Positions 5,000 through 52,644 of a DNA stretch of 64,000 nt are shown here, in pieces. The stretch spans positions 1,612,001 through 1,676,000 of the forward strand of contig BCIK01000001.1 in the NCBI GenBank assembly GCA_039545295.1. Reading direction: 5' to 3'. The stretch comes from Udeniomyces pyricola (Eukaryota > Basidiomycota > Tremellomycetes > Cystofilobasidiales > Mrakiaceae). The translations under genes were made by a program, and so were the position numbers. The notes below the pieces were generated by a model. The model made no database searches, was not told the origin of the DNA, and worked only from the letters and a program-made list of their open reading frames with translations. The stretch's first letter is position 1. Each line of letters starts with the position of its first letter.

Positions 5000-5325
5000 T
5001 GGCACGTCAAACACATCCATCGATCATCATCCAATATCCATCAGACATGCTAGCTGCATCCATGTCGTGGGGAGAACGAGCCGGTCGAGCTGTCGAGTCC
5101 AGACTTTTCACTAACCTTCTCACTAGCCTTCAATCTCTCCAGGCCGCCCAATCGACGCGTACCATTATGCATTGACGTCGGTCGTACAACGTTTGACGTT
5201 TGACGCGTGACGCATGACGTTTGACGTGCTTGACTGTGCGAGTCGCAACGAGTCAGGACAATCGCTCTCCTTTTCACTCTCTTGTCTAGTGCCTGATCTG
5301 CTGCAGAGCGCAGATCTGGGGAGGA

Positions 5326-5420
5326 TACCAGCGCACCAGCGCACCAGCGCACCAGCGCACCAGCGCACCAGCGCACCAGCGCACCAGCGCACCAGCGCAC
5401 CAGCGTACCAGCGTACCAAC
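5326..5420. repeat. 8-bp minisatellite gcaccagc
   Basis: About nine tandem copies of gcaccagc, followed by diverged gtaccagc and gtaccaac units. The partner site in the right arm (about 52253-52322) has about six. It lies roughly 430-520 bp upstream of the TATA box of secreted-protein gene A. Confidence 0.85.
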
Positions 5421-5852
5421 AGCGTACCAGCGTACTAACAGCGTACTAACGCGTCGTTGCGTCATGTATTAGTGCGCTAGTGCATTAGTGCATCGACGCA
5501 TTGACGCATGGACGCATCGACGCATTGGTGCATGACATGAGCTGTCGACATGTCGACGACGTCAGCCGTCATCCCGTCGCCTGTCGAACGTCGCCTGTCG
5601 AACGTCGAACGATCAACGATCAACGGTTAACGATCCCCGGTCGGTCGGACATTGGATGATCGGATGATCGGATGATCGGACCACCCCCCCCCCTTCCCCT
5701 CCCCTCCCCTCCCTCACTTTCCTTCCCCATCCTCCCTGCTAGCTTGCAAATCTGTCCAGGCGAAACAGCTAAACACAGACGATCGTCGACCTCTGCAGTC
5801 GATTGGCCTGCTGGCCTGCTGGCCTCCTGGCCTCCTGACCTCTTGGCAACCC

Positions 5853-5859
5853 TATAAAA
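5853..5859 (+). promoter_or_regulatory. TATA box of secreted-protein gene A
   Basis: TATAAAA inside CCCTATAAAATG, 127 bases before the start codon of copy A. The same CCCTATAAAA element lies at comparable distance before copies B, C and D, so it is very likely the core promoter. Confidence 0.75.
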
Positions 5860-5979
5860 TGCCATGAGATCTGCTTTCAATCCTTTCTTTCCATCAACCT
5901 CTATCATCTCATCTCACTCTTCTCACTCCTTCACCTTCCAACCCAAACCCACACCCAAACTCACCTCATCCTCACCAGT

Positions 5980-7699
5980 ATGATCGCCCCCAAGTTCACC
6001 TCTGCCCTCGCCCTCGCCTGCTCCGTCGCGACCCTCGCGTCGGCTGCCCCGTCCCGACGAGCCACCGCCGTCGGCGTCACTGTCTCGACCAACGAGACCG
6101 TCTCTGCCACGGTCTCGCCTATCCTCACTATCCTCACCGGTCTTGAGGCTTCGACTGTGAGTACTGTACCCTGTCTTGCTGTACCCTGTCTTGCTGTCCG
6201 CTGTCTTGCTGTACCCTGTCTTGCTGTACCCTGTCTTGCTGTACCCTGTCTTGCTGTCCACTGTCTTGCTGTACCCTGTCTTGCCCTGCTGGGCGAGTAG
6301 TCGGTCGCAGAAGCGGACCGGGCTGGATGCAGGGCGCCCGGTATCCCTTTGCTGCAGCTCTTTGACTGCGGATGCTGATGACGATGTGTCTTGTCTTGTC
6401 TTGTTCTGTTATCTATCTTTTCTTATTTTCATCTTCCCTTCTCTCCATCTTCCCTTCTCTCCATCTTCCCTTCTCTTCATCTTCCCTTCTCTTCATCTTC
6501 CCTTCTTTCCTTCCGTCGACCTTCCATCCTCCCAGGGCGCTATCGTCTCGTCCCTCACCTCGACCGTCGCCGAGGGTGCTCTCGACACTGCCGCGACCGC
6601 TGCTTCGCTCGTCGACCTTGACGCTCTCGTGAGTACCCGACGCTGATGGCGATGAGTCTGGCGGTTTGGTGTGGTGTGGTTTAGTGTGATGTGGTTTAGT
6701 GTGATATGGTGTGGTTTGGTTTGGTTTAGTGTGATGTGGTGTGGTGTGGCGTGGTATTTTGGAACCGTCGAATGACCAACAACCGTATCTTGGTCATCAT
6801 GCCCCTCCCCTCCCCTCCCCCCCCCAGCTCTCGACCGCTACGACCGAGATCGAGTCGCTCTCGACCAAGGCCCTCTCGATCTCTGCCGACATCAAGGCCG
6901 ACGCCTCTGCCGCTCTCTCGGCCACGCTCTCCAACGTCGAGTCGATCCTCACGACCGTCAAGACCGAGGCGATCACTGGTGTCGATGCCGAGCTCACTGC
7001 TGGTGCGTTCTTGGTCCATATCCGTTGTCGATTGCGGTGGATCGCTTCATCTCTTCATCTCAGCTGACATGCTTCGTGTGCCATTGATCTACTCCCTCCC
7101 CCTTCATCGGTCTACCCCTTGATCGGTCCGCCCCCTCGTCAATTCACCCCTTGATCGGTCCACCCCTTCATCGATCCATCCCCTCGTCGATCCACTCACC
7201 CATCGATTTACTTTCCTCTACAGTCAACACCGAGCTCTCCGGCCTCGTCAGCGCCCTTCCCTCGACCCTTCTCCGACTTGTCTCGGGTGTTCTCACCACT
7301 GGTCAGTGCTGTCTACTTTGTACTTTTGTTTTCGGTCGACGATGACGAAACATGCCTCAAGACGAAAAAAAAAAAANAAAAAAAAAAAAAAAAACAACAT
7401 GCCACACCCTGGAAACGTGCTTCATCATGCCCCATCACGCCTCATCATGTATCACCATCGTCACGATATGCAACCGAGGACTGGACTGACATACCCTGCT
7501 TCGCCCACGTATCCTCTCGCGTATCCTCTCGCTTGTGCTTGCTCCCCTTTTCCCCTCCCTTCTGGACGTCCACCGCTTGTCGTCCACACCTGCAGTCCAG
7601 CACATCCTCTCCGGCTTCGGACTTGACGGCGTCGTCTCTGGCATCCTTGGCATCATCTCTGGTGTCCACGGCTCTGCCGGTCTCGGCATCCACTTCTAA
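5980..7699 (+). CDS. Cysteine-free small secreted protein, copy A
   Basis: Five exons (5980-6156, 6536-6628, 6828-7002, 7224-7301, 7596-7699) give 208 residues. Residues 1-22 form a clear signal peptide (MIAPKFTSALALACSVATLA, then SA). The mature chain has no cysteine and is made of Ala/Ser/Thr/Leu/Val-rich amphipathic stretches (LSTATTEIESLSTKALSI, LSATLSNVESILTTVKTE), ending in a Gly-rich hydrophobic tail (VVSGILGIISGVHGSAG). I do not recognise the family; the composition recalls hydrophobic-surface-binding HsbA-like or other wall-associated proteins, but no specific motif supports this. Copy B encodes the same protein and C nearly so. Intron 1 holds eight 15-base repeats that keep the frame open. 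The 5' untranslated stretch matches copy C, not B. Function unknown; secretion is inferred from the signal peptide. Confidence 0.85.
6166..6286 (+). repeat. 15-bp tandem repeat in intron 1 of copy A
   Basis: Eight units of a 15-base sequence (gtaccctgtcttgct and variants with gtccgc or gtccac) directly after the intron 1 donor. The length keeps the exon 1 frame open. The same array is in copy B (about 51358-51478) and absent from copy C. Confidence 0.9.
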
Positions 7700-8836
7700 G
7701 CAGGAGATGGGACGGATCGTTCCCTTCATTAGTCGTTTCTTTTTTTTGCGGATTTGACTCGACTCGACTCGCCTCGCCTCGCCTCTTCTTAGATTTCTTC
7801 GCTTCGGTTTATGTGTCATCTATCTCCATCTCGTCTTTGGACCTCTTGTCATCTTTCACCGTACTCCACTCCACTCTACTCTTGGTCTGCTGGTATACAT
7901 ATATATATAATGGGATCTTTTTCTAGCCATGTGACCTCTGATCTTTAGTTCCAGTCGAACCGTCGAACCGTCGAACGTGATCGTCCGTTCCGTAGTCCGT
8001 TCGATAGTATCTACTTGAACTTCGATGACTCCAGATGAGTACGGATTGAGGTCGAAGATGAACCTACAACGTTCCACAAGGTTCTCAGTCCTCAGTCGAG
8101 ATCGCGATCATCGTTTAGAACACGATACCCATATCATACCAAGCGGCGTGCGCCATACCGGAATATATGCATGGTCTCTTTTCATGCTTTATTGCATTAT
8201 ACCACCGCCCCCATCTCGTTCTATGCGGATGAGACCGAAAGCTCCATCTCCCTTTGAGCTGTTTATCTAGAGCGTTCTTTGGTCGACTTTCTGCCTCCCT
8301 CTTCTTCTCTCTGTCTCGATTTAGTTTCACCCATCTTCTTGTTGGTCTCGTCATATTTTTGGTTGTTATGTGTGGTATCTCTCCCCGTTCTATCGGACGC
8401 GACCTTCGCTCCTTCTGATCCATCCATCCTTCACCGGATCTTAATTTACCTTTGCCGGTGTGCTCCTATCTGGTTGTATATAATGGAAGTATTCTTCTCG
8501 CGATGACGCTGCATGCCATGTCTTGGGCCGATCCATCACAAAGCGAGCGGATCAAGAGTAAGTACCGTAAATAGCTAAAGTATACCGAAGGTGTTTCATG
8601 GCCGATGTCATAACTGACTTAGCTAGCAAAACGTTACTCGACGAGTTTAATGAGCGAGTCTCCCTAAATCGATGGAACATTGAATATGTCAAATGTATTG
8701 AGGCTGTCGGTCACTGCTGTGAATTCCACGTGACATAGCACGTGACGTGGACGCATGATAATCGAATATCGATTCGTTTCGTTTCTCTCGCACAGTCGTC
8801 GACACTGAGCGCTGCGCCTCCCATCTACTCAACAAG
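7700..8836. other. 3' flank of copy A and intergenic DNA
   Basis: Bases 7700-8205 belong to the inverted-repeat arm and must include the 3' end of copy A. The frame at 7856-8077 (-) recurs unchanged in the other arm, but that follows from the identity of the arms and does not show coding. 8206-8836 shows no gene. Confidence 0.5.
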
Positions 8837-10069
8837 ATGGCAGGGTTTTTCTCCAACGTACTAATCTATCTTTGCCTGCTTCTTTTTTGATTGCTTTCAT
8901 ACGCTGGGCTCCCAGCATGAGTGTCGTGCTCACTGTTTTCCTCCATTATGCACCCTGTTCATTCCTCTGTTCCCCCCCCCCCCCCCCCCCCCCGCCCCCT
9001 TTTCAAATTCTCTCTTCTCACCTGGTCCGATCTTTCCTTTGCTCAATCCCTCTCCCCAACCAAACAGCTTACGGCCAACCTCCCCACAGACCATGAATCC
9101 CTTCCTTACCTCCTTTTGCCCATCACGTTCCATCTTGGGTACCTCTACGAGCTCTTTCGCCAACGACGGCAAGAACACTGGGTCTTTGGCTTGACGCTCT
9201 TTTCTCGTGCGTTCTGTCGGGTTCGGAAACGTCGATGATGGATGAGGAGGTTTCCAAGCCGATCGATTTTGATCTCCTGTATCGTTGACGAAGATGGAAC
9301 TCATACTCATTTCTCTAGACATGGAACTAATCCAACTTGATTTGCTCCCCATGACTTGTTTGTTCTTGTTGGCATCGTCTCTGATGGGGGTGGTGATGAT
9401 TGCTTTGTATCAGTCATCCAAGCTCTCTATGCCGCTCTTCCCTCCTCTTCGACATCTTCTCAACACCCCTTCTCATTCCCCTTTTCCCTCCTCCCATCTT
9501 CCTTTTCCCTTCCAACCGTCGCTCCTCCCTTTTGGCTCCCAGAAAAGCAAATGGCGTGGTCCTTGGTGTTCTGGACGGTTCCTGCTTTGGGCGAGGCGTT
9601 GATGGGATTGGTAAGTCTCGTGATTGACGTCGTTCGTTCGTCGACGCAGGAAGAAGATCATAAGTAGTTCGCTAATCTGGAACCGATTTAACCTTTTTTT
9701 TTTTTCTTATCTTATTATTTATTAATATTGTTGTTTTCTTCCACTCTCCTCGATTTCTACGTACGAACGTATATGACATACATATCCACGTCCTCTTCTC
9801 TCTCTCTCTCTCTGGGAATTCTCCCTCTTTCTTGGGTCCATCCTTTCCTCCCCTAATCCCATCTGTAACTTCATATATACTCTTTCGACCTCCCCAAACC
9901 CCCCCCCCCCCAAAAAAAAAACCCCTCAGATCTTCCTCCTCCTCCACGTCAATCGTTCCTTGACAGCTCTCGCTCAAGCCCGCATCAATGCCGGCTCCCG
10001 ACGGAAAGCTCTCAAGAAACAGCAGTGAGACGGACGCATCGACGTCGAGCGTCATCATCCCTGACATAT
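8837..10069 (+). CDS. Putative small membrane protein, gene model unresolved
   Basis: Several hydrophobic segments with splice signals point to a multi-exon membrane protein, but I could not close the model. Segments with coding character: an exon around 9070-9218 (HESLPYLLLPITFHLGYLYE, then LFRQRRQEHWVFGLTLFS, donor GTGCGT at 9219); one starting at 9319 in matching phase (MELIQLDLLPMTCLFLLAS, SSLMGVVMIALYQ); one ending in MAWSLVFWTVPALGEALMGL before a GTAAGT donor at 9613; and a last exon from 9974 (SLKPASMPAPDGKLSRNSS) to the stop at 10067-10069. The first exon may start at 8837 (MAGFFSN) or later. No family recognised. Three or four membrane helices are visible. The junction into the MAWSLVF exon is the weak point. 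Confidence 0.38.
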
Positions 10070-10925
10070 GACCGCGCGCGGGGAAGGNGGGGGGGGGGGG
10101 AGGGTTTGATTACAGTAGTCTTGATAGTATACTAGTTTGCGTCAATGTGGGGGGGGGGGGGAATGGCACGTACGCACGCGGGTGGTAGGTATATTGTAAA
10201 AAGTGATCAAAGATGGAGCGCGCACTAAGGTTGAAAACGAGTCTGTTTTCTGTTTTCTGTTCTGTTCTCTTTTTTTTTTTTTTTTTTTTTTTTTCTTTTT
10301 TTTCTCTTCTTGCTATGCGACTCAATTATCGAGGTTGAGTATGTTAAGAAAAAGACATGTATGCTGTTGTTCTGAGTGACAGAGATCGTAGTTGATCGAG
10401 GAGGGGAGAGAGAGATAAAGGCATCAAAGTACCGGCTCATGTATGCGCGCAAACTGATCAGGGATGGAAAAGGGGGAAATAAATAGCAGGGAGGCCTAAG
10501 GAGGGAAGTGAAGACACGTGGAAAGATGTGCTGTTGGAAAGCATGATGAATGAATGAACGACTAGGATGCCAAAGCTCAGGAAGAAAAGATGAAACGAAA
10601 AAGAAAGAAAAGCTAGAGAAGGGACTAGTGATCAAATCGAAATCTGGAACGGAAATGGGTGGCGGGTGAAGCAAAGATAAAAATAAAATAGAATGAAGTG
10701 GAGTAAAGCACAAGCAAGAGGAAGAAGATGGATGAAAGTAGGGACCAAAGCTAGAAAGGGAAGCAAAGACAAATTCTGCAACAGGAAGAAATGGGAAAAC
10801 CAATCAAGGAAACAAATCCGGTACTACTAGCACACATCCGTACAGACACACACATACACACACATAACTACACACACAAACAAGCAAACAAGAAAGAAAA
10901 AACATACAGGAACAACTACGTCGGT
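10070..10925. other. Convergent intergenic region with homopolymers and a purine-rich stretch
   Basis: Contains a G run with an N at 10088, a second G run at 10148-10161, a T run at 10270-10294, and from about 10380 to 10900 a plus strand strongly enriched in A and G. No gene seen. It holds the 3' ends of two convergent genes. Confidence 0.6.
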
Positions 10926-13169
10926 TTATCCCTCGAGTTCTTCAGCAAACGCGTCCAACTCCGCGACCCAAAACCTGCCCTCACCCTCGGATCTCTCGCC
11001 CCCAAACTTCCTCTCGAGCGTGCGCCAACCACCGCTCAGACCCGTCCTCCAACCCCAGACCTCGACGTCCCAGCCGAGGGAGAGTGCGTGCTGGACGCAA
11101 CCGAGGAAACCGCTAGCGTTCAGAGAAGAACCGGCGGCGTCGCCTGTGGCGAGAACAAGCGTTGCAGGGGGGCACGAAAGGAGGGTCTGGAGAATTTTTA
11201 GCTGGAGAAGTCTGTGATGAGTGAGTGCGAGTATGGGATGAAGAAGAGGTAAGCATGCGGCATACAGAGGAACGGATCAAGGATACTGTGCCAGGTACCA
11301 GAGAAGAGAACATGAAGAATGACTTACTCGTCAACACCCTGTTCCTTCATCGTCGACCGCTTCACAAACGCAGGCTTTCCCCTGGCGCTCGCTTTCGTCT
11401 TCTTCATGCTCCTCATGGCTCCCGCATGATTCCTCACTCTCCCCTTAAATCTGTCTGCCGCGAAGAGTGTAGACGCCCCTCCAAACCCACCCTCATCACT
11501 CTCCTCGCTGCTCCCACTGGCGCCACTCGTAGACGCCGCCAGATCCTCGCCGCTGCTCCCAACGAGCGCATCGCCATCCCAATCGACCCGGACGCGCTTG
11601 AGAACGCAAACATCCCAACCACGTTCCTTCTCCTCGTTGAGGTTTTGCCAGAGCGGAGAGGACGCCACAAGTGCAGGTGGAGCAAGGAGAGGTCGGCCAC
11701 GTTGTAGAAGGAGCGAAAGGTTGGGTGTCATGGAGAGCGTGCGACGAGAGGAATCAGCAGAGGGGAAAGAGGTGGAAAGAACGGAAAGCAGACCGACGAG
11801 AATGTTGGAACTGATGGAACAAAGGTTTCAAGAGGCCCCTCCTGGTCGTCAGGATCATTGGACGAAAAGAAAGAAGAGAGCAAAGAACAGCAAAAACAAC
11901 GCAATCAATCACTCACTGATCGATAAAGACGTGGACGCCATTGTCCGCGTTTGGATGGTTTTGACGGCTTAACTCGTTGAGAGGGGTGAGCATCGCAGTC
12001 GCGGGGTGTTCGTAGTCGGCCATGATTGCAAGGGTTTCCTCGGCCAGCACCTGGCTGGTGATTGAAAATTCGTTGTGCGGGAACGAGTGGATGAGCTTCG
12101 TCGCAAGGCGATGAAGAGAGGATGGACGATCGGGAGGAGGGGGAGGAGGCGTATGGACACGCGGTGATGGGATGTAAATAGGAGAATCGATGTGGATGGG
12201 CGAAGGCGGAAGGGTCGGGGAGGATGGAACCGGCCGGCGGATCGGAAGAGGTCGTGATGACTTGGCAAGCTGAGTGGTGAGAGTAGTGGTTGAAAGAGTA
12301 GCGGAAGTGGGAGTGGAGGTCATTGTGCTTTTGACAGAGAGGTTTGTGACCCAGGTTTCCTCAGCAGCTGGCGACGCCACGAGGGTCGGAGTGTCAGATA
12401 GAACAAGGTCTTCTGCGAAATCAGCTGACGCTGCCGAAGCCAAAGCTCGAACCTCCTCGTCGTCCGTAGCAAGAACGTTCCAGTCGATTCGAGCGAGCAC
12501 GGCGTCTTCAGACGTCTGGAGTGACCTGTTTGCGCGAGAAGGTCGATCGGTCCTTCTTGATCTCTTATCCTTCTTGTCTGTCCCGGACCTAACGACGCTC
12601 GCCGACATCCTGCTTTCGATCGTGGACTGTGAGGTCGATGGGACGATGGCGACTGAGCTGTCGGCATTAATGTTGTTCTTGTTTTCGGTGTTCACAGTGC
12701 TGCTGCTGCTGCTGCTGCGAGCAGTTCCTCGGCGGCGGGCCGAAGACGAGGCGGTGAGGCCCGATTCCTCAAGAACACTGCGCTGGTATTCTGTCAGGGC
12801 CCGCTCTCGAGGGGCCCGAGGATTGGGAGGTTTTGATGGGAGAGAGACGAGCTCCGGCACGGATTCAAAGCGGGAGAGTTCTTGCGTAAAAAAGGAGAAG
12901 AGTGTAGGGAAATCACCGAGATCGGGTGAAGGCGAAGAGGAGTGAGCGGTGACAGTGTCGGGAGTGGCAGCGACAGAGGCGCTGTTGGACGAAATTGTGG
13001 CCGCCGTCGGGATCGAAGGTGAGAACGATGCGGCGGCCAAGGCACTCTTGGGGTGAGAGAGAGCAGAGTTGGGAGTCCAGAGTGAGCCCTGAGTAGGCTG
13101 CAAGCGAGGGTAGCGAGAGGCAGGAAGGGTGGAGGTGACCGACGAGTTGGTGGCGAGAACAGACTGCAT
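10926..13169 (-). CDS. NYN (PIN-like) nuclease-domain protein with long disordered N-terminus
   Basis: Three exons, 13169-11917, 11810-11328 and 11211-10926, give 673 residues with matching phases. Residues 1 to about 410 are Ser/Thr/Pro-rich and probably disordered, with a basic patch (KKDKRSRRTDRPSRANR). From about 412 the chain enters a NYN domain: VHVFIDHSNILVGLL supplies the first acidic residue (D417), and the C-terminal part has TLVLATGDAAGSS (D603) followed by LGWDVEVWGWR and WRTLERKF, the usual beta strand with tryptophans. NYN domains are PIN-like metal-dependent RNases, often involved in RNA turnover. A long insert separates the domain halves (residues 445-580), including a stretch rich in Ser, Glu and Gly. 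Substrate and partner cannot be read from the sequence. It diverges from the 1295-residue gene over 707 bases. Confidence 0.8.
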
Positions 13170-13876
13170 GGTTGGTAGATATTGAGTGGCGACGGAGTGG
13201 ATCGGGCGTGAAGGGCGCGACTGGATGGGGTCCTGAATAAGCTAGGCTAGGTACTAGCTTGAGTGTAGTTGAGTCGAGGGAGATCGTACAGCGGATCAGA
13301 CGTCAAGCCAAAGTGGACAAAAGTCGAAGGGAAGTGAAGAAGGGCAAGAGGAATGGAATGTGGCGAATCGGGGCGGAAGATCGGGTGGCGAGGCAAGGAG
13401 AGCAATGAGCAGGCAAGCGATCGGCTCGAGTCGAGTCGGGGTTTGAGGATGGCCGGAAGAAGGAAGTAAAAAGATGAAGGGAGGAGAGGCTACGTGCTCA
13501 GCAACAGTAGAAGGGAACGAGGGAGGAGGCAGAGGTGAGGAAGGTTGAAGAAGGAAAGGAGACGATAGACGATGAATATATGTGTGAATGTCAATTGCGG
13601 ACGAAGCGGAGACCAGGGATCCCTCTCTCACGGGCTGTGTAGAGCCGATCTCGATCTTGCTCACGTGCCAATTCGCACAGCTGACGCGTGGGCGAGAATC
13701 GACAATCCTCGGCGCGTCCTCGTCGCGTCAATACGATTGATTGAAGCGCGCGTTAATGTCAATGCTTCTTCTTGCTTTCGACCTTGGCCAGCTGCTACCT
13801 TTCCTCTCCCTTTCCTTGTCTTGACATTTTCTTGTTACTTGCTTCGTTCCCGTAGTGATACCCGCTCCTCCTCTCA
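13170..13876. other. Divergent promoter region
   Basis: 707 bases between the start codons of the NYN protein (-) and the 1295-residue protein (+). It must hold both promoters. I see no clear TATA box, and the region is pyrimidine-rich toward the plus-strand start. Confidence 0.55.
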
Positions 13877-16800
13877 ATGACCTCGGTCCCACGTGATCCC
13901 CCATTTGCTCCACTCCCGACCTCGCGTCTCCATCGACTCTTCCGACCGTTCCTGTCCAAACTCAACTCCCTTCAGACCCTCCTTCCGCCTGTAACCCCTC
14001 CCTCACCTCTCACAACAGAATCCTCTACCACTACCGATGGCCCCAGGTCCAACACTTGTACTACCAACCCCCACCACAGCGGCTTCCAGTCCCCTCATCC
14101 CGCTCCTCATCCAAAGCCGGCACGTCGAACTTACTCGCGACATGCCAATAACAATCCTCCCTCAACCGGTCCTTCCTCCTTCTTGGACTCAACATTTGCC
14201 TCTACCTCTGCTTCTTCGGCCGCTTCAACGCGTCAAAATCAATTTGAGACAACTTCTGGATCAGCTCGAGGCCTTCCGCTCTTTGAACTCGACCGCAAGA
14301 TGAAACGGACAAGAGCAAGAGGGCTTCCCGCCGAGTTGGGACGGATTCCTCTACCAACGACCAGCGCAGCGAGGATGGGCAGAGGAATCGACTCGAATCG
14401 GGGCGAGATCAAGTGTGTCGGCGTTGAACTGGCGGAACTCTCGTATGTGGAAAGCTCGATCATGGGACTGCTCTAAGCCCGGGTCGGTCCACAGACTAAC
14501 CGCACTTGTATCACTATCGATCAGGAAACGAACTGCTGCGTTTCTGGACTCGTTCCGACACATTCTTGAGCTCGCCTGTCCTTCATCGACCTCGCTGAAC
14601 AGCCTACCTACCGGCGAGCTACATCTATCGCGTGTCCCCCGACTCGGTGTGATCTGCGCTCGAAAGGTCGGGGAGAACATGGAAGCTTGGATCGAAGATC
14701 AAGTCTCAGAGGAATTAGGCGAGACTTCGAGTGGAGGAGGTCACCTATCGGATGTAGGAGGTAAAATGGAGGGAAGAAAACTTGAGCTAAGAAGCGAGTG
14801 GTGGGAAGGCATTCCGGAAGTATGGAGACGGTGAGTTTTCGCATCAATCTCACATCGAGAAGGTATGAGAAGGACAGACGCCTAACTGGGTGCCCTGTTT
14901 GTTTACGTTTTCTTTGGATTCGCTATTCAACGCCACCCTACTTCTCAAATCCGATTCTTACTCATCGTAAATTGTCTTGTAGATATGCCGTCACCGTTCA
15001 TGCTATTTCCCTCGTCCTGAACAGTGACATCCCTTGCCACGCTCTCTTCGAGTCGATGCTTGACATCTGCCTGGATCGCGGAGCCATCTATGAAGCGTCG
15101 CTCCTTCTCCCACACACCATCCTATTGTCATATACTCTCGTTCCGCGCGGTCCAGGGGCCTCGTACCTGCCAACCATGTCTCGCAAGCTTTCACTTTCAT
15201 CTGGGTCTCCGATCGCGTCTCAATGGCAAAACCTCATCGCGTCTTCCTGGACTCAAGTCATGCACTACCTCGACAATTTCGTCGATGCAAGTACTGGGCC
15301 TGCATCGCGTACGCAGCTTCAGAGTCGATGGCTGAGCGATACTGTTGACGGGCTCGTTCGAGACGGAGAAGAGGATCACGAGGCATCGACTCAGCTCGTT
15401 CTCGCCATCTTTCAAACTCTTCTCGTCAATGATGATAAAGACAACACCGACCCAATTTCAGAACTCTTTATCCGACGCATCTGGTCCTGGACGCAATACC
15501 TCATCTTCAACGCAAATCATCTGCACCTCCATGGCTCTTCCCCCTCTACCCTTGTAGTCATCAACGAGTCCCTCTCCGGCATTTCCGCGCTTCTTCGAAC
15601 CCACCTTTCTCCTGATCAGCAACTTGTTGTCTCCAATGCGATGCTCTCGCTCGACATGCATCTCCTCTGCACATCAACGACAACGTCAGCGGTGATGGAG
15701 CCATTATCCCCCTCGAACGTTGCTAGCCCAACTAAGGTCCCATTCGTCAACAGCAGCCGCTTGATTCGCCATCATATTCCCACCGACTCGCTCACCAACA
15801 TCTCTATCCCCCACATTCTGACCTCACACTCGACGCTTTCCACTGTTTTTTCGCTCTCGACCGCCCTCCGGACCCATCATCTCCCGACTCTCGAGGCGGC
15901 CATCCTCTCTGCTGCAATCGACCAATTTGATCGGCTCTCCCCCTTCTCACGACAGAATCGCCCCACAGGTACCCTCCCTACCGCAACTTCATTGACAGAA
16001 CTAGGTACAGAAGAGGAGGACAATGTCTCCGATGATGCACTCGCTGCCCAAGCCTTCCTCGCGGAACTCTCGATCCTGCTCGAAGAGGCCGAAAAGAGCC
16101 AGCGCGAAAAGGAGATTCTCGCCCGAGACGCCCATCGAGCAGGTGGGTTCTCGTCGAGCGCAGGTGGAGAAGGAAGATCCGTGGTCAACAAGGGCGTCAA
16201 ACCGGCGATGAGATTTGAAGAACTCGTTGGCGGCTGGGTCGAGGTCACGCCGGTCGTGAAGAAAAGGCGTCGTCGAATGCCGGGCGCAGAGAGCGATGAG
16301 TGTACGTCCGAGGAAGAAGAGGGCAAAGAAGACGAATTTGATCAGAGCCCATACATCTTGTCTCGATTCGTACCCCATTCGGCACCTCTTGTGACGGTGT
16401 TCGGATCAAGGAGGCAGGAAGAAATAGATCGCATCGCCAGCGAGAAAGCAGGATACGAGTCGGACGATCCCATGGACGCCTTGGGCGAGGACGAGGACGT
16501 CTCTGCTATCCTTTCCCAACAGCCACATGTACCCTTATTACCTTCCCGCCCAGATTTAACTGTCTTGTTACCTCCTGCTCAACCTTTAGCGCTCTGCCCT
16601 CCTCAGGATCAGCGACTCATGATCAAAAGTCACTCGACTTCGGCACTCGTCGCTTCATCTTTGCCCTCTTCTTCTCTGTATGGGACTTCAATAAGTCGGC
16701 GGCCACGTTCCGCTTCACCCCCGGCTAGTAAAAAACTTCGTTCATCCTCCAATGCCGTCATTCCAATCTCTTCCCACGCATCGAATTTGGTCGACGTGCC

Positions 16801-17998: not shown

Positions 17999-18465
17999 GG
18001 CCAGAGGGTTAAGAGAGAACCTGGGAAGGCACAGTGTTGGAGATTGGATCTGAGCATGATCAGGTATTGAGTAACGTCAGATGCAGTGGATGTGGGTCGG
18101 GGGCTTTCAAGCTAAAAACGAGATTGGTCAAGTTAGTGACATTCTTGAGAGGGTCTATCGGGTCGGTCCGGGTGATGAGGCTGTATATATATGTATCCTA
18201 GACTCTTTGCTTCTTCTTGATTATTTTCTTTTCGAAGAAACAATCCATACTCGCTACGCTCGCGGCTCATCTGCGAGATCTATTGGAGTGACTCTATCCA
18301 TCAAGATCACCCACAAGGTTATCAACTCTTCTTCTTTCATCAATTGGACATCACCACCATTCATCGCCATCGTTATCGCCCATGTTCGTTACTCTACTCA
18401 AACCACACAGCCGTATCCATCAACCCCTATCATTCTAACACCAAGCGCGACCAATAACTGTCAGA
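17999..18465. other. Convergent intergenic region
   Basis: Between the stops of the 1295-residue gene (+) and the membrane protein (-). No gene or notable repeat seen. Confidence 0.55.
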
Positions 18466-23586: not shown

Positions 23587-23620
<34 letters not shown>

Positions 23621-23640
23621 CGTGTTGATGAAGGGGAAGA

Positions 23641-23671
<31 letters not shown>

Positions 23672-41900: not shown

Positions 41901-42400
41901 GAAACTGATGTTTTTTTCACACTCCCCCTTGCTTTTTTCGGCCAATCAGACGAGCCGGTCGATTCGGAACCCGAGGTCTCGCCATCACTTTCATCACCGG
42001 AGACGCTGACTCTGAGATCCTCGTTCGTTGCCTTTCTCGCCTTCTGTTCTTTGAGAGGGCAAAGTTGACGGACGTGTAGAGTCAGTCCCCTCAGCGCTGA
42101 TACTTGTTCTTTGACTTTCTCGTTCCTCTATCTTCTTCCTCCCTGTCCCCTTTCCCCTTTGTGTTCCGCCCTGTGTTCATCCACTTTTACAGAAAGCGAT
42201 CCAGTCCCGATTCGAGGTCAAGGTGGAAGAGCTCCCGGAGACGATCGAGCCGTCGACTTACATGTACGTTCATTGGAGTGCTTTGCTTTGGCTTTTCCTT
42301 TTGAAACAAGGTTGACTGAATCCTGACGACCCACCACCTCATATGGCTTGCCTTTACGGCGTTTGCTCTCTTTCCCTTTGCTGTTTGTAGGACCTCGTAA
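38987..42400 (+). CDS. SUB2: DECD-box RNA helicase Sub2 (UAP56/DDX39B)
   Basis: Ten exons: 38987-39135, 39570-39637, 39799-40209, 40997-41049, 41168-41233, 41333-41464, 41553-41812, 41950-42022, 42193-42263 and 42391-42400; 430 residues, all phases agree, matching the usual 430-450. Sub2 acts in spliceosome assembly and, with Yra1 and THO, in mRNA export. Motifs in order: [15 protein letters not shown] and Q motif EVQQECVPQ; motif I AKSGMGKT (about 91-98); [21 protein letters not shown] (about 200-203); SAT (232-234); [32 protein letters not shown]. The end is [18 protein letters not shown]. Exon 10 codes only for the last base of Met, then Thr-Ser-stop. Intron 3 is 787 nt and intron 1 434 nt, much longer than the rest. 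Confidence 0.96.
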
Positions 42401-44120
42401 ACGACCAACAACAACAACAACAAAAACAAAAACAAAGAATCTGCCAGAAAAAAAAAACGATCACGATCCTTTTTTGTTTTGTTTCATCTTTGGTCTTTTT
42501 TTCCTTTTTACTCCCTCCTCCTCTTCCCTTTTCCGATGTACTCTTTTCTCGTCCCACCCACTCCCCGTCCTACTCCCCTTCCTCTGACTCTCTCTCTCTC
42601 TCTCACCTCCGCATGAACTCTTCCGATTCGTTTTTTTTTTTTTTCTTCTTCTTCCAATATATATCTCACAACTTTCTTGCTTGACGGAACCCCAAGACCT
42701 TGAGAGATCCTACCCGTACGCGCCTGCAAAAGGAAGAGCGAACAAAGCAGGACGCGTCATGAGTAAGGTGGGGGTGGGGGGAGGGAGAATAACTGCTTGC
42801 TTGCAAAACGATACCCCGGCGCGCCGGGTGGACCCGGAATCGAGTCGGATGGGACTGGATCAACTCGTAGGAAGGAAGCATTCTGACGGCCAGATTAGAA
42901 ACACAGCGTCATGGGATGAATGGATGGATGAATGAGTGGATGAAATGGATGGACAAGTCAATGAACGGATCGATCAAAGAAATCAATTGGATTGAGGAAG
43001 AGAAAAATGACCAGGAATGAGATGGGAAGAGGGAAGGGGGGGGGGGATTTAAGAGGAACGAGAAAGGACATGGGTGTGGGTGGGGATACGTGTCGAAGCT
43101 GATAGTAGCCAACGAAAAAAGATTAAGAACGAGAGAAAGAAGAGTGAAAAGCCCCCCCCCACCCCCCCCCCCCCCCCGAGGCTAGGGAAAGAAGACAAAC
43201 TGGGATGGAAGTCATCGATAGAAGATTGTGCCAATTTAAAGAGGAGAAGGAAAAAAAAAAAAAAAAAAAACAGAGAAGGGGATCGTTTAGAATGCGGTTT
43301 GGAGATGCGTGACGAGATGAAGGGGGAGGAGGGGAAGGGGGGGGAGGAGAAGCATCGAGCAAGAGAATCAAGGAAGAAAGAGAGAAACGTCAATGAGGTT
43401 GCGTCGTCAGAAGCGAGAAGTAAGAAAAGAATGGCGAATTTTATCTTATTTTACAACATGGAACAAGCAAGAGAAGTATAAAAGAAAAGAAAAAAAAGAA
43501 GAAGAAGAAGAAAAAATATAGGAGCAAAGAAGGGTGAGTGGTGGGTTGGCTGGTAGGGCATGTGCGAGAAAGAAAAGAAAACAGACGCGAGACAACCTAG
43601 ATGGGAGGCTTGAAAGGAAAGATAGTATGAGGGACGAGTCAAGCGAGAACGGAACGGGAGTTTGAGGGCCGGGTGGGAGTTCGGATTAGGGGGGAGAGTG
43701 GGCAAAAGGAGGCTCAGAAGATTGTCCATCTTCACGGGGGACGGTGTGGAATAGAGCAGGGAGAGAAGAAACGGAGTGGGATGTGGCGTGAACGAGCGAA
43801 GACGATAGGAACCCATGAGTCGTTGAAGGGCAAGACCGAAAGAGAGAGTGACACGGGAGAGGAAAAGCCAGAAAGGGGGAAGTGGCAATGAGTGCGAGCA
43901 AGGCAACAACGGCAGCGAGAGGTGAAGTGGCGGGGAAAACGTCTTTGGCCGTCGTTGTGGAGGGAAGACAGGGCGCGCGCATGTTCCGGCGATCAAAAGG
44001 GCCATTGAAGTCAATACAAGAGAAAGGAGAAATCCGATAGTAAATGAGCGCGTTATTGTCAACAGGTTGAATGTCAAGATGGCTTCAAGTCGATCGGTAA
44101 GTCTCGACGAGTTGCGCTCG
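42401..44120. other. Convergent intergenic region, purine-rich plus strand
   Basis: Between SUB2 (+) and ATG1 (-). From about 42930 to 43900 the plus strand is mainly A and G, with a C run at 43153-43177 and an A run at 43251-43270. The frame 43451-44077 (-) is open because of this composition (Leu/Pro/Ser/Phe-rich); I see no reason to call it a gene. Confidence 0.6.
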
Positions 44121-47100
44121 CTATGCCGAGGGAGGAGGTGAGGATGCTGAAGCCGTCATACGTCGTCGAAGCGCATCGAGTCTCTTTTGACCAGCATTGA
44201 TAACTATGTTCCAGCATGAGTTTCAAACGGAACCGTGTCAGCACGATAGAACCACATGACAAGACCGGGGACCGTCAGAAACATAGTAAACGAGAGTCGA
44301 GCCAAAATAATAAACTGTCACGCACACTTGTCGACCGTCAATCGATCTTCTTCCTCCATCATACCGCCTTCCCTAATTGTGTCGTCGAGGATGGCACGGA
44401 ACATCCAAATAGCACTTTCGTATGCCTGTTCGATAGGGGCCGGGTCATCTCCAAGAGCTTCATGGATGGCAGCCGTTCGAGACTTGAAAAGGGCCAGAGA
44501 CGAGGGTTGGAAAAGAACAAGAGCAGTCAATACCATGACCCTAGATCAACATACATGGATGACCGAAACCCGACAAACGCGAGACGTACGAGTTCCATAG
44601 CGCGGTCGTAAAGCAGCCGTTCGGCAAACGTTGCTGACTCGGGAACCTCCTCGGCGCATCGAGCTTTGGCCCACTCGGCCTTGTCGAACGCCTCGTTGAA
44701 CCGGGCCCGAAACCATTGTACAGCTAGCACTCACACGCAGGAAGGAAGTTTCGATCGGAGTGTGTAAGTGAAGCTCACCTAGGATCAAGGAGGGTAGGAT
44801 ACGTTACGATAACTCACTCTCGTTCAGCTCTGCACTAGCCTCAATCCCTCCATCGAGACCTCGTCCAATGAGCGCCTCTTGCCAGAAGGCCTTGGCCGCC
44901 TCCATTCCCTTTTGTAGAAACGCGAGAACCTTGAGGTAGAGGATCAAGCTCTCAGCCGCCACAACATCCATCCGGAACATGGAAGTGTCGCTACCCGAGT
45001 TGGAGTTGGCTCCGCTTGATTTCCTCCGATTCATGGTTCCGACACCTCCCGGTCCGCCTCCTGAAGGGTGGTATCCGTGCGCACCAACGCCGCCTTGGAA
45101 GCCTGATGAAGAGCCTGGAGAGTTAGTGTTGGAAGTACCAAGAGCAGATCCATCGGCGGCCGACGAGAGCATGGCGAGCTTGCCGTCGGCGAAGTCGATG
45201 ATGGTCTGCGCCTTATGGGCCAGTTCTTGTAGTAAGTTGAGGAGCTCGGTCTCGGCTTGGTCGGCATCGCCAATTTGCGCTCGCCGCCTAGCAGTCGCTC
45301 GGGCAACCACCCCGGCGCCTTTGGCTGCTGCAGAGGAAGGGGAAGTCCCAAAGATGCGGCCCGAGGCAATGGAGAGAGCGCGAGCCAGGACTCCACCTCC
45401 GGACGTCGTGGGCGAAGAAGAGTATCGATGTAGGAGCGGTGGCTGATGGGACGAAGAAGAGCTGGGTAGTATCGAGTGTCCAGAACCGGCAGAGCCGACC
45501 GAGTTAGGGCCTGGCGATGAGCTCGCGTAGTGATTAAAATGGCCCGAACTCTGAGGTACGGCGAGCGGACGAGTCAGGGAGGTGGTGTAGTTGTGCTGGA
45601 GAGGTGAAGGGCGTGATGGGGAAGATGCTAAAGCGAATGGAGGCGTGACTGAAAGGGCGAATGAATTGGGCTGGGGCGAGGATGAGAGCGCCACCGACGT
45701 CGGTGGACTGCTGCCAGAAGTGAGAGCCGAGATGGGTCTCGAGAGCAGCGAACGCGATGATCGACGTCGACTGACAGTTGCGGGAGGACGTGAAAATGCG
45801 GCATCAAGCTCTGATGATCAAAGAAACTGACTATTCGTCAGCCGCTATCGCTATACACCCGGTCTGAGAAAATTCAATTCCATGAAAGGCCGAGATGCAA
45901 CAACAACTCACCGTCGGCCAATGAATTGATTTCAACAGTCCTCTTTTCGATGACTACATAATCCCGACTCGCCGCATCATCCTCGTCCCCAAATTCCAAA
46001 CCACTCGTGTGCATGGCCCCTGAGCCTATCGAGTTCTTCCTGTCTCCTATGCTAGGCCGCCTGGTCGGGCCGCTACTCGAGCGCCTTTCGATCTCGCGTG
46101 GACCTATGCCCAACGTATATCGTTCACTGGGACTTTGCTCATTCTCGCCAACCAGATACCGCGGCTCAAACGATGACGGATGGCGATGAGGTTGAGGATG
46201 ATACGTTGGCGAACTTGACTGCTGCGCAAAAGGTGGTCGCGAAGAGGAAGATGGAATGGGCTGAGGAGATGGGGGTTGCGGGTGCGGGTAAGGCGCTTGA
46301 GTCATGACGGGTGAAGCAGGGCCAGAGAGCGGCTGGACAGGCGGACGGGTTGTCGAAACGGATGATGTTCTCGAGGGTGGAGATTGGCCGTACGCTTGGG
46401 GAGCGGGTGATGCCGGGAGAGGAAGTGCAAAAGGGGGGGGCAAAGGCGCCGATCGAATGGGAATGGGCGCCACCGTCGAGGGGTAGGTTACTATGGCTTG
46501 GGTCGGAGGCGTGCTCGACATGGGCTGCATCGAAGCTGGGGGTTTTGGGATGTTGACCATCTTGGGTTCTCGTAGCCGACTCGTCTCACCACTGACCACT
46601 TCGTCCCGGAAGAAGTCGTCAAAACTCATCCGCTGGACAGGGTTCCGTTTGAGGAGACGCCGCACCAGATCCTTCACAGGCCGGCTGACGGGTCGGGCCC
46701 TGACCCCATTGCCACCAGCGTTCGAAGCGGCCGCTTCAGGGTTCCAAGACGATTTTTCGTCAGGAAACCGGATCTTGTCTTCACCGCGTTCGATCTTTTT
46801 GAGAAGCTCAACGTGGTTCTGAGCCTTGAAGGGGGGCTTTCCGGCCGACATTTCGTAGAGGACGGTCCCGACCGACCACAGGTCCGCCTTGGCGTCGTAC
46901 TTTTCGTAGCGCAGAATCTCAGGCGCCATATAAAGTCTGAGAGACAGAAGCAAAAGCGCGTTAGCTGAGAAGAGATCTAGCAGTACAGCTGGAAGACGGA
47001 TGAAAAAAGGAAGCCTACGGAGAGCCACACAAGGTCTCGGCCATGCTTGCACCCTCGAGGAAACGGGCGAACCCGAAATCCGCAACCTTGAGCACGGGAA

Positions 47101-48655
47101 TACCGAGTGGATGACCAGCTGCAACTTGAGTAGCTGAAGGAGGTTGTAAGAGCAGATTCTTTGACGTATCCGAAAAGCTCAATGTCAGCTTGTAGCGCGA
47201 TTAGGTCCAAATGAACGAAGAGTACATAATAGGTTACTCACCTGGGGCTTGATGTCGCGATGAATAAGATTTTGAGACCGAAGGAACTTGAGAGCCAGAG
47301 CTGATCAAACATATGGACCAGAGGGGAGGAAGAATATAAGCGACCTTACACTCGACGAAAACGATCCATCTATCGATGCGACCGACCTAGTTGACCCAAG
47401 AAACATCGGACGACGACTTCGTCCAGCCCTCCTTCTTCTGGATGGGGCCAGAACTGCTCTATGCTTGCACCTTCGGGACGATACTCCAGCGTTGGTAGTC
47501 TTCCTCGCTTCTTGATATAAAACGATAGATCTCCCCCCGAGCAGTAGTCCATGATAAGATAAATGCGCTCGTCGAGTTTCTGAGGTTATACAGCGAGTGG
47601 ATTCAGTCATCGAAGATCCATCTACGATCGTATGTTCAGGCGTAAAAGATTTTAGTCCGGCTAAAGCTGGAGACCGACTCACCAGACAGTCTTCGAGGCC
47701 GACAATGTTGGGATGATGAATAGCCTTGAGAATGGCGATTTCGGCCTCGAGGTTCTCAAGCAGCTTGGACGTCATCTTGGCACGTTGAACGATCTTGATG
47801 GCGACAATCTCGCGCGTGTCCTGATGTGAATGCAGCATGATACGGTCCAGAAGAAAGATGGCAGAAACAGCCGAGTCTTATCAGCCTCAGTTCGATATGC
47901 GACAGGGCTACGTCGAAAGGGGGTACAGCACTCGACGCGCAGTTATTACGCGGCGAGCCTCGCGACTGTCGATGGACTCCAGTCGCGAGCACATCGACCG
48001 TCGGCTTTGTGCCTTGCACTCATGCATCACAGAGTAACCAGTGCAAGGATCTACGACACTTAATTGAACGCGTTTGTCAATCCGAGACAGGTGAAGTCAT
48101 GTCGGATACCCAGCGATCAACAGAGAGAGGGAGGGGAGGGGAAGGGAAAGGTACTCCTCTTCCCACCGCTCCCCACTTCTGACTCCGTTCATGCGCCTGC
48201 GCTCCAGGTCCACGCCGACAGTCGGTCGCTGCCGGCTTCGTCGGTGATCTTACGCATGTACCATCTCACTCAACTCGCTAACAGATCTACTGACAGCTAT
48301 GAGCTGAGTCATGGGTGTAGATCTGAGGACGAAAGGAGAGGACAAGAGAGGAAAGGCCTCCCCCGTGCCAATCCTCCCCGGTAAGAGCATCCGAGTTGAC
48401 CGACCATGGACAAGCGCACCTGAGTCCCGTCGATGGCATCATTCTGACTCCTTTCCGCTTCTCTCGTTCAACAAGCCGGATAGAAGCGTAGCAGATCACT
48501 AAACGTATCGGACGCACCGCTTTGTAGCCCCTCTGGACAGTGGCGAAGCTGCCTCGGCCGATCTCACTTCCGAGGAGGTAGGAGCCGACTCGTTCGCGTT
48601 CGCGATTAGGCGCAACGCTCGCCGCGAGGTGGGACGATGCAGGGCCAGTCGACAT
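44121..48655 (-). CDS. ATG1: Serine/threonine protein kinase Atg1 (ULK1 family)
   Basis: Ten exons: 48655-48518, 47820-47683, 47579-47387, 47300-47242, 47158-47019, 46936-45912, 45810-44818, 44723-44590, 44482-44328 and 44181-44121; 1011 residues, all phases agree. Atg1 starts autophagy, bound to Atg13 and Atg17-type scaffold. Kinase motifs: GRGSFATV (33-40), VAIK (Lys55), [21 protein letters not shown] (Asp172), DFG (203-205), [23 protein letters not shown]. An unusual insert with a Pro/His/Glu run ([17 protein letters not shown]) lies between the E helix and the preceding strand, as in other fungal Atg1. The middle is Pro/Ser-rich. The C-terminal Atg13-binding helices (MIT-like) are present: [85 protein letters not shown]. 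The last junction (44327 to 44181) gives [10 protein letters not shown]; a small exon could be missed there. Confidence 0.93.
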
Positions 48656-49454
48656 GGCGACGCGCAGGTAGGTGGTTGGAGGTGACTCTGGTTTGGGAAG
48701 AGTTGATTGGGTTGGAATCCGGAGGGGGTGATGGAGAGGAATGAGGTGGAGCGACTAGGGTTATCGCGAGCTGATCGGGTCGATGGGAGGACGGGACGAA
48801 GGGGTGGATGATGATGAGAGCAAGCGGTGGCGGTGGATTGGGCGTTGTTGCTGTAACAGGCGGTGAGACACGCTACTAGCTGGGTGGGGTTGGGATGTTG
48901 AAATGCGGACTGGCGCGAACAAGTGGAGAGGGAGATGTAAGTGGGACGATGCTGATGAGGAGTGGATTCGATAAGCGATCGGCTGATGTATGAGTGACAG
49001 TGGGGGGGGGGGGAGGGGGGGAGGAGGAGGAGAGAGAGCAGCTAATACGTACAAGAGTGGAAGGGGGGAGGACGCGGGCCGACCTCAAGCGCGCGCACTG
49101 GAGCCAGGCTAATGATATATGATAGACGATGGACCAGTCTTGGACCAATCCACTCTCACGCGATCATTGCGCCCCATTTCGTGTGTTGATCATCGATGCC
49201 AGTCGATTCGCAAGATAACGCTCCCCACACGTCATCCGCCAGGGCAAAGCTCACATCCATCACGTCCCATTACAGCAGCCGTCGGCTCGACCACCTATGA
49301 TGATATATCAAGACTTACAACTACTCATCACGATATCACCATTCGTTGCTCAACATCATGGTATTCTAGACATACATGGCGCATGAACCATAAATATTTA
49401 CACAGCCATTCAGTAGACTCCATCATCTTTCAAGGCAGGTACGTGCAGAGACCG
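48656..49454. other. Intergenic region upstream of ATG1
   Basis: Contains the ATG1 promoter and a G-rich stretch at 49001-49036. No gene seen up to the inverted-repeat arm. Confidence 0.55.
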
Positions 49455-49959
49455 ATGGTATAATGCAAAAAGCATGAAAAGAGACCATGCATATATTCTG
49501 ATATGACGCACGCCGCTTGGTATGATTTGGGTATCATGTTCTAAACGATGATCGCGATCTCGACTGAGGACTGAGAACCTTGTGGAACGTTGTAGGTTCA
49601 TCTTCGACCTCAATCCGTACTCATCTGGAGTCATCGAAGTTCAAGTAGATACTATCGAACGGACTACGGAACGGACGATCACGTTCGACGGTTCGACGGT
49701 TCGACTGGAACTAAAGATCAGAGGTCACATGGCTAGAAAAAGATCCCATTATATATATATGTATACCAGCAGACCAAGAGTAGAGTGGAGTGGAGTACGG
49801 TGAAAGATGACAAGAGGTCCAAAGACGAGATGGAGATAGATGACACATAAACCGAAGCGAAGAAATCTAAGAAGAGGCGAGGCGAGGCGAGTCGAGTCGA
49901 GTCAAATCCGCAAAAAAAAGAAACGACTAATGAAGGGAACGATCCGTCCCATCTCCTGC

Positions 49960-51664
49960 TTAGAAGTGGATGCCGAGACCGGCAGAGCCGTGGACACCAG
50001 AGATGATGCCAAGGATGCCAGAGACGACGCCGTCAAGTCCGAAGCCGGAGAGGATGTGCTGGACTGCAGGTGTGGACGACAAGCGGTGGACGTCCAGAAG
50101 GGAGGGGAAAAGGGGAGCAAGCACAAGCGAGAGGATACGCGAGAGGATACGTGGGCGAAGCAGGGTATGTCAGTCCAGTCCTCGGTTGCATATCGTGACG
50201 ATGGTGATACATGATGAGGCGTGATGGGGCATGATGAAGCACGTTTCCAGGGTGTGGCATGTTGTTTTTTTTTTTTTTTTTNTTTTTTTTTTTTCGTCTT
50301 GAGGCATGTTTCGTCATCGTCGACCGAAAACAAAAGTACAAAGTAGACAGCACTGACCAGTGGTGAGAACACCCGAGACAAGTCGGAGAAGGGTCGAGGG
50401 AAGGGCGCTGACGAGGCCGGAGAGCTCGGTGTTGACTGTAGAGGAAAGTAAATCGATGGGTGAGTGGATCGACGAGGGGATGGATCGATGAAGGGGTGGA
50501 CCGATCAAGGGGTGAATTGACGAGGGGGCGGACCGATCAAGGGGTAGACCGATGAAGGGGGAGGGAGTAGATCAATGGCACACGAAGCATGTCAGCTGAG
50601 ATGAAGAGATGAAGCGATCCACCGCAATCGACAACGGATATGGACCAAGAACGCACCAGCAGTGAGCTCGGCATCGACACCAGTGATCGCCTCGGTCTTG
50701 ACGGTCGTGAGGATCGACTCGACGTTGGAGAGCGTGGCCGAGAGAGCGGCAGAGGCGTCGGCCTTGATGTCGGCAGAGATCGAGAGGGCCTTGGTCGAGA
50801 GCGACTCGATCTCGGTCGTAGCGGTCGAGAGCTGGGGGGGGGAGGGGAGGGGAGGGGCATGATGACCAAGATACGGTTGTTGGTCATTCGACGGTTCCAA
50901 AATACCACGCCACACCACACCACATCACACTAAACCAAACCAAACCACACCATATCACACTAAACCACACCACACCAAACCGCCAGACTCATCGCCATCA
51001 GCGTCGGGTACTCACGAGAGCGTCAAGGTCGACGAGCGAAGCAGCGGTCGCGGCAGTGTCGAGAGCACCCTCGGCGACGGTCGAGGTGAGGGACGAGACG
51101 ATAGCGCCCTGGGAGGATGGAAGGTCGACGGAAGGAAAGAAGGGAAGATGAAGAGAAGGGAAGATGAAGAGAAGGGAAGATGGAGAGAAGGGAAGATGGA
51201 GAGAAGGGAAGATGAAAATAAGAAAAGATAGATAACAGAACAAGACAAGACAAGACACATCGTCATCAGCATCCGCAGTCAAAGAGCTGCAGCAAAGGGA
51301 TACCGGGCGCCCTGCATCCAGCCCGGTCCGCTTCTGCGACCGACTACTCGCCCAGCAGGGCAAGACAGGGTACAGCAAGACAGTGGACAGCAAGACAGGG
51401 TACAGCAAGACAGGGTACAGCAAGACAGGGTACAGCAAGACAGCGGACAGCAAGACAGGGTACAGCAAGACAGGGTACAGTACTCACAGTCGAAGCCTCG
51501 AGACCGGTGAGGATAGTGAGGATAGGCGAGACCGTGGCAGAGACGGTCTCGTTGGTCGAGACAGTGACGCCGACGGCGGTGGCTCGTCGGGACGGGGCAG
51601 CCGACGCGAGGGTCGCGACGGAGCAGGCGAGGGCGAGGGCAGAGGTGAACTTGGGGGCGATCAT
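49960..51664 (-). CDS. Cysteine-free small secreted protein, copy B
   Basis: Inverted copy of gene A: exons 51664-51488, 51108-51016, 50831-50657, 50435-50358 and 50063-49960, again 208 residues with the same predicted protein, including the signal peptide. Introns match those of copy A except that intron 2 lacks one 15-base unit (sequence of the gtgtggtttagtgtg kind). The 5' untranslated stretch differs: it carries a tandem ctcat repeat (about 51718-51762) where A has the leader shared with copy C. Intron 4 has the N at 50282, matching the N at 7377 in copy A. Function unknown. Confidence 0.85.
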
Positions 51665-51810
51665 ACTGGTGAGGATGGGATGAGAAGGTGGAGGAGTGAG
51701 AAGAGTGAGGAGATGAAGTGAGATGAGATGAGATGAGATGAGATGAGATGAGATGGGATGAGATGATAGAGGTTGATGGAAAGAAAGGATTGAAAGCAGA
51801 TCTCACGGCA

Positions 51811-51817
51811 TTTTATA
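51811..51817 (-). promoter_or_regulatory. TATA box of secreted-protein gene B
   Basis: TATAAAA within CCCTATAAAATGC on the minus strand, 153 bases before the start codon; the extra distance compared with copies A and C (127) comes from the ctcat repeat in the leader. Confidence 0.72.
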
Positions 51818-52252
51818 GGGTTGCCAAGAGGTCAGGAGGCCAGGAGGCCAGCAAGCCAGCAGGCCAATCGACTGCAGAGGTCGACGATCGTCTGTGTTTA
51901 GCTGTTTCGCCTGGACAGATTTGCAAGCTAGCAGGGAGGATGGGGAAGGAAAGTGAGGGAGGGGAGGGGAGGGGAAGGGGGGGGGGGGGGGTCCGATCAT
52001 CCGATCATCCGATCATCCAATGTCCGACCGACCGGGGATCGTTAACCGTTGATCGTTGATCGTTCGACGTTCGACAGGCGACGTTCGACAGGCGACGGGA
52101 TGACGGCTGACGTCGTCGACATGTCGACAGCTCATGTCATGCACCAATGCGTCGATGCGTCCATGCGTCAATGCGTCGATGCACTAATGCACTAGCGCAC
52201 TAATACATGACGCAACGACGCGTTAGTACGCTGTTAGTACGCTGGTACGCTG

Positions 52253-52322
52253 TTGGTACGCTGGTACGCTGGTGCGCTGGTGCGCTGGTGCGCTGGTGCG
52301 CTGGTGCGCTGGTGCGCTGGTA
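52253..52322. repeat. 8-bp minisatellite, right-arm version
   Basis: About six copies of gctggtgc, the complement of the gcaccagc array in the left arm, which has about nine. Confidence 0.8.
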
Positions 52323-52644
52323 TCCTCCCCAGATCTGCGCTCTGCAGCAGATCAGGCACTAGACAAGAGAGTGAAAAGGAGAGCGATTGTCCTGACTCGT
52401 TGCGACTCGCACAGTCAAGCACGTCAAACGTCATGCGTCACGCGTCAAACGTCAAACGTTGTACGACCGACGTCAATGCATAATGGTACGCGTCGATTGG
52501 GCGGCCTGGGGAGATTGAAGGCTAGTGAGAAGGTTAGTGAAAAGTCTGGACTCGACAGCTCGACCGGCTCGTTCTCCCCACGACATGGATGCAGCTAGCG
52601 TGTCTGATGGATATTGGACGATGGATGTGTTTGACGTGCCTCAG

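Follow-up and report, generated by a model that had tools for sequence, protein, structure and literature searches.

We analysed a 64,000-base window of the genome of Udeniomyces pyricola (bases 1,612,001–1,676,000 of contig C1, BCIK01000001.1, in the assembly GCA_039545295.1 of 25.0 Mb and 38 contigs) and found that near-identical inverted repeats of several kb surround a multi-gene block. Each arm of the repeat carries one complete five-exon gene (gene A in the left arm and gene B in the right arm) plus approximately 1 kb of upstream DNA, and a third copy (gene C) lies outside the right arm. The sequence comparisons suggest that this inverted gene pair around a 41-kb block and the third copy outside it are likely kept alike by ectopic gene conversion. 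We regard the structure as real, as unusual though not unprecedented, and as a candidate flip/flop-type locus. The main features are as follows.

4969..8207, + strand, left arm of the inverted repeat (blastn against the right arm; base-by-base alignment)
49453..52678, − strand, right arm of the inverted repeat (blastn; base-by-base alignment)
6690..8122, + strand, 1,433-base perfect block, the longest exact stretch of the arms, matching 50969–49537
5980..7699, + strand, gene A, five exons at 5980–6156, 6536–6628, 6828–7002, 7224–7301, and 7596–7699 (GT-AG introns, open frame)
49960..51664, − strand, gene B, exons at 51664–51488, 51108–51016, 50831–50657, 50435–50358, and 50063–49960 (same protein as gene A)
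54330..55665, + strand, gene C, third copy outside the right arm, exons at 54330–54506, 54681–54773, 55001–55175, 55285–55362, and 55562–55665 (exon comparison with gene A)

The blastn comparison of the window with itself gave one inverted pair, 4969–8207 and 52678–49453, which aligned with 96.5% identity over 3,273 columns with 32 mismatches and 81 gap positions. Under other scoring the limits of the pair were 5001–8204 and 52640–49456. An earlier note on this DNA had described inverted arms with near-perfect cores (5000–8205 and 49455–52644) and about 41 kb between them; both descriptions hold, with coordinates within some 35 bases of ours and an intervening block of precisely 41,245 bases (8208–49452). 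The next-longest perfect stretches after the 1,433-base block were 530 bases (6145–6674) and 332 bases (5351–5682). Across a 234-kb part of contig C1 that contains the window and its surroundings, blastn with the low-complexity filter listed five repeat pairs of at least 150 bases, namely the arm pair and four pairs involving gene C. Similarity of the arms by chance is excluded. A mobile-element origin of the arms was rejected because the upstream arm end (4969–5860) and the downstream arm end (7701–8260) matched only the two arms in a search of the whole assembly, which skips simple repeats, and because blastn detected no homology between the left flanks (1–4968 and 8208–16000) and the right flanks (41001–49452 and 52679–64000).

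The identity of the arms spans non-coding DNA. Between genes A and B, introns 1–4 differed by a single 15-base indel and no mismatches, and no difference was seen in the 300 bases downstream. The coding regions differed by one synonymous substitution in 627 bases, and the encoded proteins are identical. We counted six substitutions over 5031–8122 outside the 5′ untranslated region of gene B, which has been rewritten and comprises 79 bases with an expanded GAGAT array (51678–51756) versus 53 bases in gene A (5914–5966). The arm interior (6145–8122) contained no substitutions in 1,963 aligned bases and one 15-base indel, whereas the inner arm end (8123–8204) contained 5 substitutions and 1 indel in 81 aligned bases (P = 9e-8, a descriptive value); at the outer arm end, 5 substitutions fell inside 4984–5000. 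Divergence is higher at the arm ends than inside the arms, and the inverted pair is therefore probably old and kept alike. Short tandem arrays with units of 8, 15, 16, and 30 bases occur in the promoter and in introns 1–3 of both genes (5327–5446, 6164–6284, 6428–6506, 6663–6755, and 7099–7195, with mirrors in the right arm). The arrays of A and B are equal in length in introns 1 and 3 and unequal in the promoter and intron 2. Because such arrays usually change length quickly, the equal lengths also fit recent homogenisation.

Gene C, which was absent from the earlier note, shares its five exons and the positions of its introns with genes A and B. The numbers of differences between C and A in exons 1–5 were 2/177, 14/93, 0/175, 1/78, and 4/104, respectively, and those at fourfold-degenerate sites were 0/47, 10/23, 0/41, 1/23, and 1/21, respectively. 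Outside exon 2, 2 of the 132 fourfold sites differed between A/B and C (exon 2 versus the rest, P = 4e-8). All four introns of A and C exhibited 49–55% identity, compared with 42–46% for shuffled sequence, and the introns of C yielded no tandem arrays scoring at least 60. Over the 500 bases upstream, the identity between A and C was 54% overall (40% for shuffled sequence), and in the 140 bases directly preceding the start codon it was 96%. These 140 bases align without gaps between A and C. Gene B does not align in this way, and its 5′ untranslated region is without a stretch common to A and C, as judged by eye. The motif TATAAAA is present at 5853–5859 upstream of gene A. Two tracts common to A and C cover exons 1 and 3.

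5844..6177, + strand, TATA box, 5′ untranslated region, and exon 1, corresponding to 54194–54527 with 97% identity (blastn)
6817..7008, + strand, exon 3 and its splice-site edges, corresponding to 54990–55181 with 99% identity

We infer that gene conversion at the DNA level is the best explanation of this patchwork, and we consider the sequence evidence for conversion among the gene copies to be good. Conversion that depends on local homology would account for both the A–B pattern and the A/B–C pattern. The introns and flanks of A and B are still alignable, and conversion would cover the 3.2-kb arm almost completely. The introns of C no longer align with those of A/B, and homogenisation would be limited to islands (the promoter core together with exon 1, then exon 3 and, almost completely, exons 4 and 5), with exon 2 escaping. 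The arms would predate the conversion. For the exon pattern, conversion templated by complementary DNA was disfavoured for two reasons: exon 2 is skipped, and the tract common to A and C already starts at 5844, on the upstream side of the TATA box, which points to DNA as the template. In regards to the 5′ untranslated region, conversion of that of A from C was not needed as an explanation. The paralogue E (contig C3) matches A and C across the region at 71%, and the version in gene B therefore looks derived.

The family has at least four further members in the genome, namely gene D in the window, genes E and F on contig C3, and gene G on contig C2.

57019..57985, − strand, gene D, distant paralogue near gene C with three exons; its two main stretches have 41% and 49% amino acid identity to A

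Genes D and F are sisters with a DNA match of 78% over 1.8 kb. They were used as a control pair that is apparently not homogenised: their introns are 74% identical, their exons are 84–95% identical, and 20 of 144 fourfold sites differ, spread over the three exons. By this yardstick, the intron divergence between A and C should bring many silent changes, and four of the five exons are without them. Genes D and F form an older duplicate pair (56693–59398 in the window versus L018 on contig C3), with four short collinear matches beyond the 1.8 kb. In our gene models, intron 4 is present at one position in A, B, and C and absent from D–G; intron 3 is also missing in D and F, and intron 2 is missing in E.

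The identity of the arms might alternatively reflect a young inverted segmental duplication, in which a 3.2-kb segment with gene B was recently copied across the block, so that youth would explain the identity without conversion between the arms or inversion. The six substitutions over 5031–8122 agree with such an event. Gene B sits in a B–C–D cluster and gene A is alone at the other block end, which suggests that A is the moved copy. However, the substitutions at the inner and outer arm ends are not those of a uniformly young copy, and the exon patchwork between A/B and C is not explained by youth, though it need not be. We consider this explanation unlikely, although it keeps more weight than the other alternatives.

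In a further alternative, the block was inverted once through staggered breaks that left inverted duplications, and the repeat would be a consequence of the inversion and not its cause. Such a mechanism is reported for Drosophila inversions, which likewise have inverted duplications at both block ends (PMC5080602). The presence of one arm in the family cluster and the other alone would fit a single ancestral locus. The Drosophila duplications are described as occurring only at the breakpoints of inverted arrangements (PMC5080602). A scar of this kind would still need later homogenisation or youth to account for the identity of the arms. It is not exclusive with gene conversion, and we consider it less probable than a young duplication.

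It is improbable that one of the arms, or the orientation of the block, was made by the draft assembly. Each arm has a single N at the matching position of its 30-base A run (7377 and 50282), a coincidence suggesting that the assembler used one consensus for both arms; the perfect block could therefore conceal small differences. The 234 kb contain Ns at 20 places (17 single Ns and one run of 100), a pattern that indicates a draft scaffold assembly, and the 1,433-base perfect block exceeds short reads, which were presumably used. Nevertheless, both arms continue without gaps into different unique flanks, and they differ by substitutions, by two length changes of tandem arrays, and by the rewritten 5′ untranslated region of B. 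A false arm is easier to rule out than a wrong orientation; the orientation given to the block depends on the link, of whatever kind, that was made across the 1.4-kb perfect repeat. Short-read assemblies are reported to have overlooked an inversion in Saccharomyces for the same reason (PMC9731477).

The 30 open reading frame (ORF) stretches of the window that we scanned, unspliced, against Pfam (E ≤ 0.01; one ORF was included twice with slightly different limits) contained no homeodomain, HMG-box, or pheromone-receptor family, although the set is not an exhaustive annotation. The invertible mating-type region of Ogataea is flanked by inverted repeats of a few kb. In the flip/flop mating-type loci of Komagataella and Ogataea, orientation determines which gene is expressed. 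A programmed inversion switch of this type has a similar geometry and a block of similar size (19 kb in Ogataea polymorpha, where the inversion is described as a regulated cell-type switch; PMC5720833) but is hardly credible here, where A and B are copies of one gene with identical products and no mating-type gene was found among the scanned stretches.

Several points weigh against gene conversion as the favoured explanation. Concerted evolution would be shown on a tree of strains, whereas the analysis covers one genome, and D–F is the one control pair. The limits of the arm ends were chosen post hoc from the alignment, and the P value comparing the inner end with the interior is descriptive and no test. 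One consensus in both arms could overstate the identity of the interior and sharpen the contrast with the ends, because reads anchored in the unique flanks would preserve differences just there. The differences between A and C outside exon 2 are not all silent: both differences in exon 1 change amino acids, and two residues are changed in exon 5. Some of the silent identity may be due to codon constraint, since G or C occupies 78% of the third positions in A (53–70% in three other ORFs of the block and 66% in E and G), but this constraint would have to spare exon 2. Finally, the repeat-rich introns of A and B may simply evolve fast.

A minority of the A–B exchanges may resolve as crossovers and flip the block, which is expected to be possible as in the Saccharomyces flip/flop region; inversion of the 41-kb block is plausible by analogy. 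The earlier note had proposed that recombination between the arms would flip the block. The arms have the length and similarity that recombination requires, and the signs of DNA exchange among the gene copies (exon-wise homogenisation with C, and diverged ends versus a near-identical interior) agree with this proposal. The note had further proposed that a flip would exchange the distal flanks of the two secreted-protein genes and could change their chromatin or promoter context; a promoter effect is not supported. Because A and B both point inward toward the block, with approximately 1 kb of upstream DNA on the outer side of each arm, a crossover inside the genes or beyond their 3′ ends would keep each upstream side and swap only the inner 3′ neighbours, and the proteins are identical. 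The proposal that recombination would not harm the genes inside applies to exchange between A and B only. Genes A and C lie in direct orientation at a distance of 48 kb, and a crossover between them would therefore delete the block with TOM40 and SUB2, which would probably be lethal in a haploid. With a direct-repeat copy beside an inverted pair, exchange with C could convert exons while its crossovers would be purged as lethal deletions, so that the locus would record conversion and crossover separately.

The closest known system is the flip/flop region on Saccharomyces chromosome XIV, in which a 24-kb block is flanked by 4.2-kb homogenised inverted repeats and is reported to have flipped repeatedly within each species (PMC9731477). 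Both loci have near-identical, gene-bearing inverted repeats (4.2 kb there and 3.2 kb here) around ordinary genes (24 kb there and 41 kb here), with identity through intergenic DNA and signs of homogenisation (PMC9731477). In Saccharomyces, both orientations and the homogenisation are documented in many strains, whereas a single genome is described here; each Saccharomyces repeat contains a tRNA and two protein genes, whereas each arm here contains one gene and a third copy lies outside; and the Saccharomyces Centroid family is described as sitting mostly near centromeres (PMC9731477). ARAGORN, run with bacterial settings, detected no tRNA in the window; a tRNA gene at the end of each repeat is a trait of the yeast locus that the mechanism does not require. 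According to a value cited in PMC9731477, about 4% of conversions resolve as crossovers. A recurrent inversion of the mammalian X chromosome (Caceres et al., cited in PMC9731477), an animal locus reported for many mammalian species, is similar in its proposed mechanism, by which conversion keeps the repeats alike and an occasional crossover flips the block. We found no paper that combines a basidiomycete, recurrent inversion, and inverted repeats, which does not show that none exist. We only tentatively suggest that the locus is a recurrently flipping block outside Saccharomyces yeasts, driven by a continually homogenised secreted-protein gene and with C in the same conversion network; this is a possibility we would sooner doubt than accept.

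If the block flips, the locus would represent inversion toggling by homogenised gene copies outside Saccharomyces and would allow one to ask why such pairs stay alike. Even without flipping, the A/B/C trio would clearly document the natural reach of conversion after introns have diverged, which ends at or near exon edges. The locus also serves as a warning that the orientation shown for such a block in a draft assembly may be arbitrary.

The product of genes A and B is a predicted secreted protein of 208 amino acids, with a signal-peptide-like start as judged by eye. Protein A matched no Pfam family over its cut-off, and no homologues were found at E ≤ 0.001 in 5.8 billion proteins (5,326 candidates), a database that may hold few fungi.

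The genes of the block were identified through the Pfam scan and comparisons with PDB.

8208..49452, no strand assigned, block between the arms with TOM40, SUB2, ATG1, a possible UBP2, and others; no repeat of at least 150 bases was listed inside

Pfam matches were obtained in 9 of the 30 stretches. Those over the cut-off were a kinase piece, Porin_3, DEAD, and Helicase_C, and those below it were a second kinase piece, two RPT, one KRE1, and one F-box-like match. TOM40 was recognised by Porin_3, and all nine of its PDB matches (9/9) were TOM40 or the TOM complex. SUB2 was recognised by DEAD and Helicase_C, and its 16 best PDB matches belong to the SUB2/DDX39 group (SUB2/UAP56). The ATG1 candidate contains a kinase and an ATG1-like MIT domain, the latter in two pieces between 44650 and 45244; the best match of its kinase piece alone was ULK3, and this match was weak. 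TOM40, SUB2, and ATG1 were thus recovered from the gene list of the earlier note, whereas its UBP2 is a possible identification, based on the RPT matches below the curated cut-off. In baker's yeast, TOM40 and SUB2 are essential, and ATG1 and UBP2 are not; the description of the block as one of essential genes accordingly fits the first two and not the others.

An uninterrupted ORF of 1058 amino acids at 14822–17998 matched no Pfam family and had a single homologue (44% over 68% of its length), which is named a hypothetical protein. Long G runs recur in the window (23571–23700, 48994–49030, and elsewhere), and many of the isolated Ns of the 234 kb lie in or beside G or C runs.

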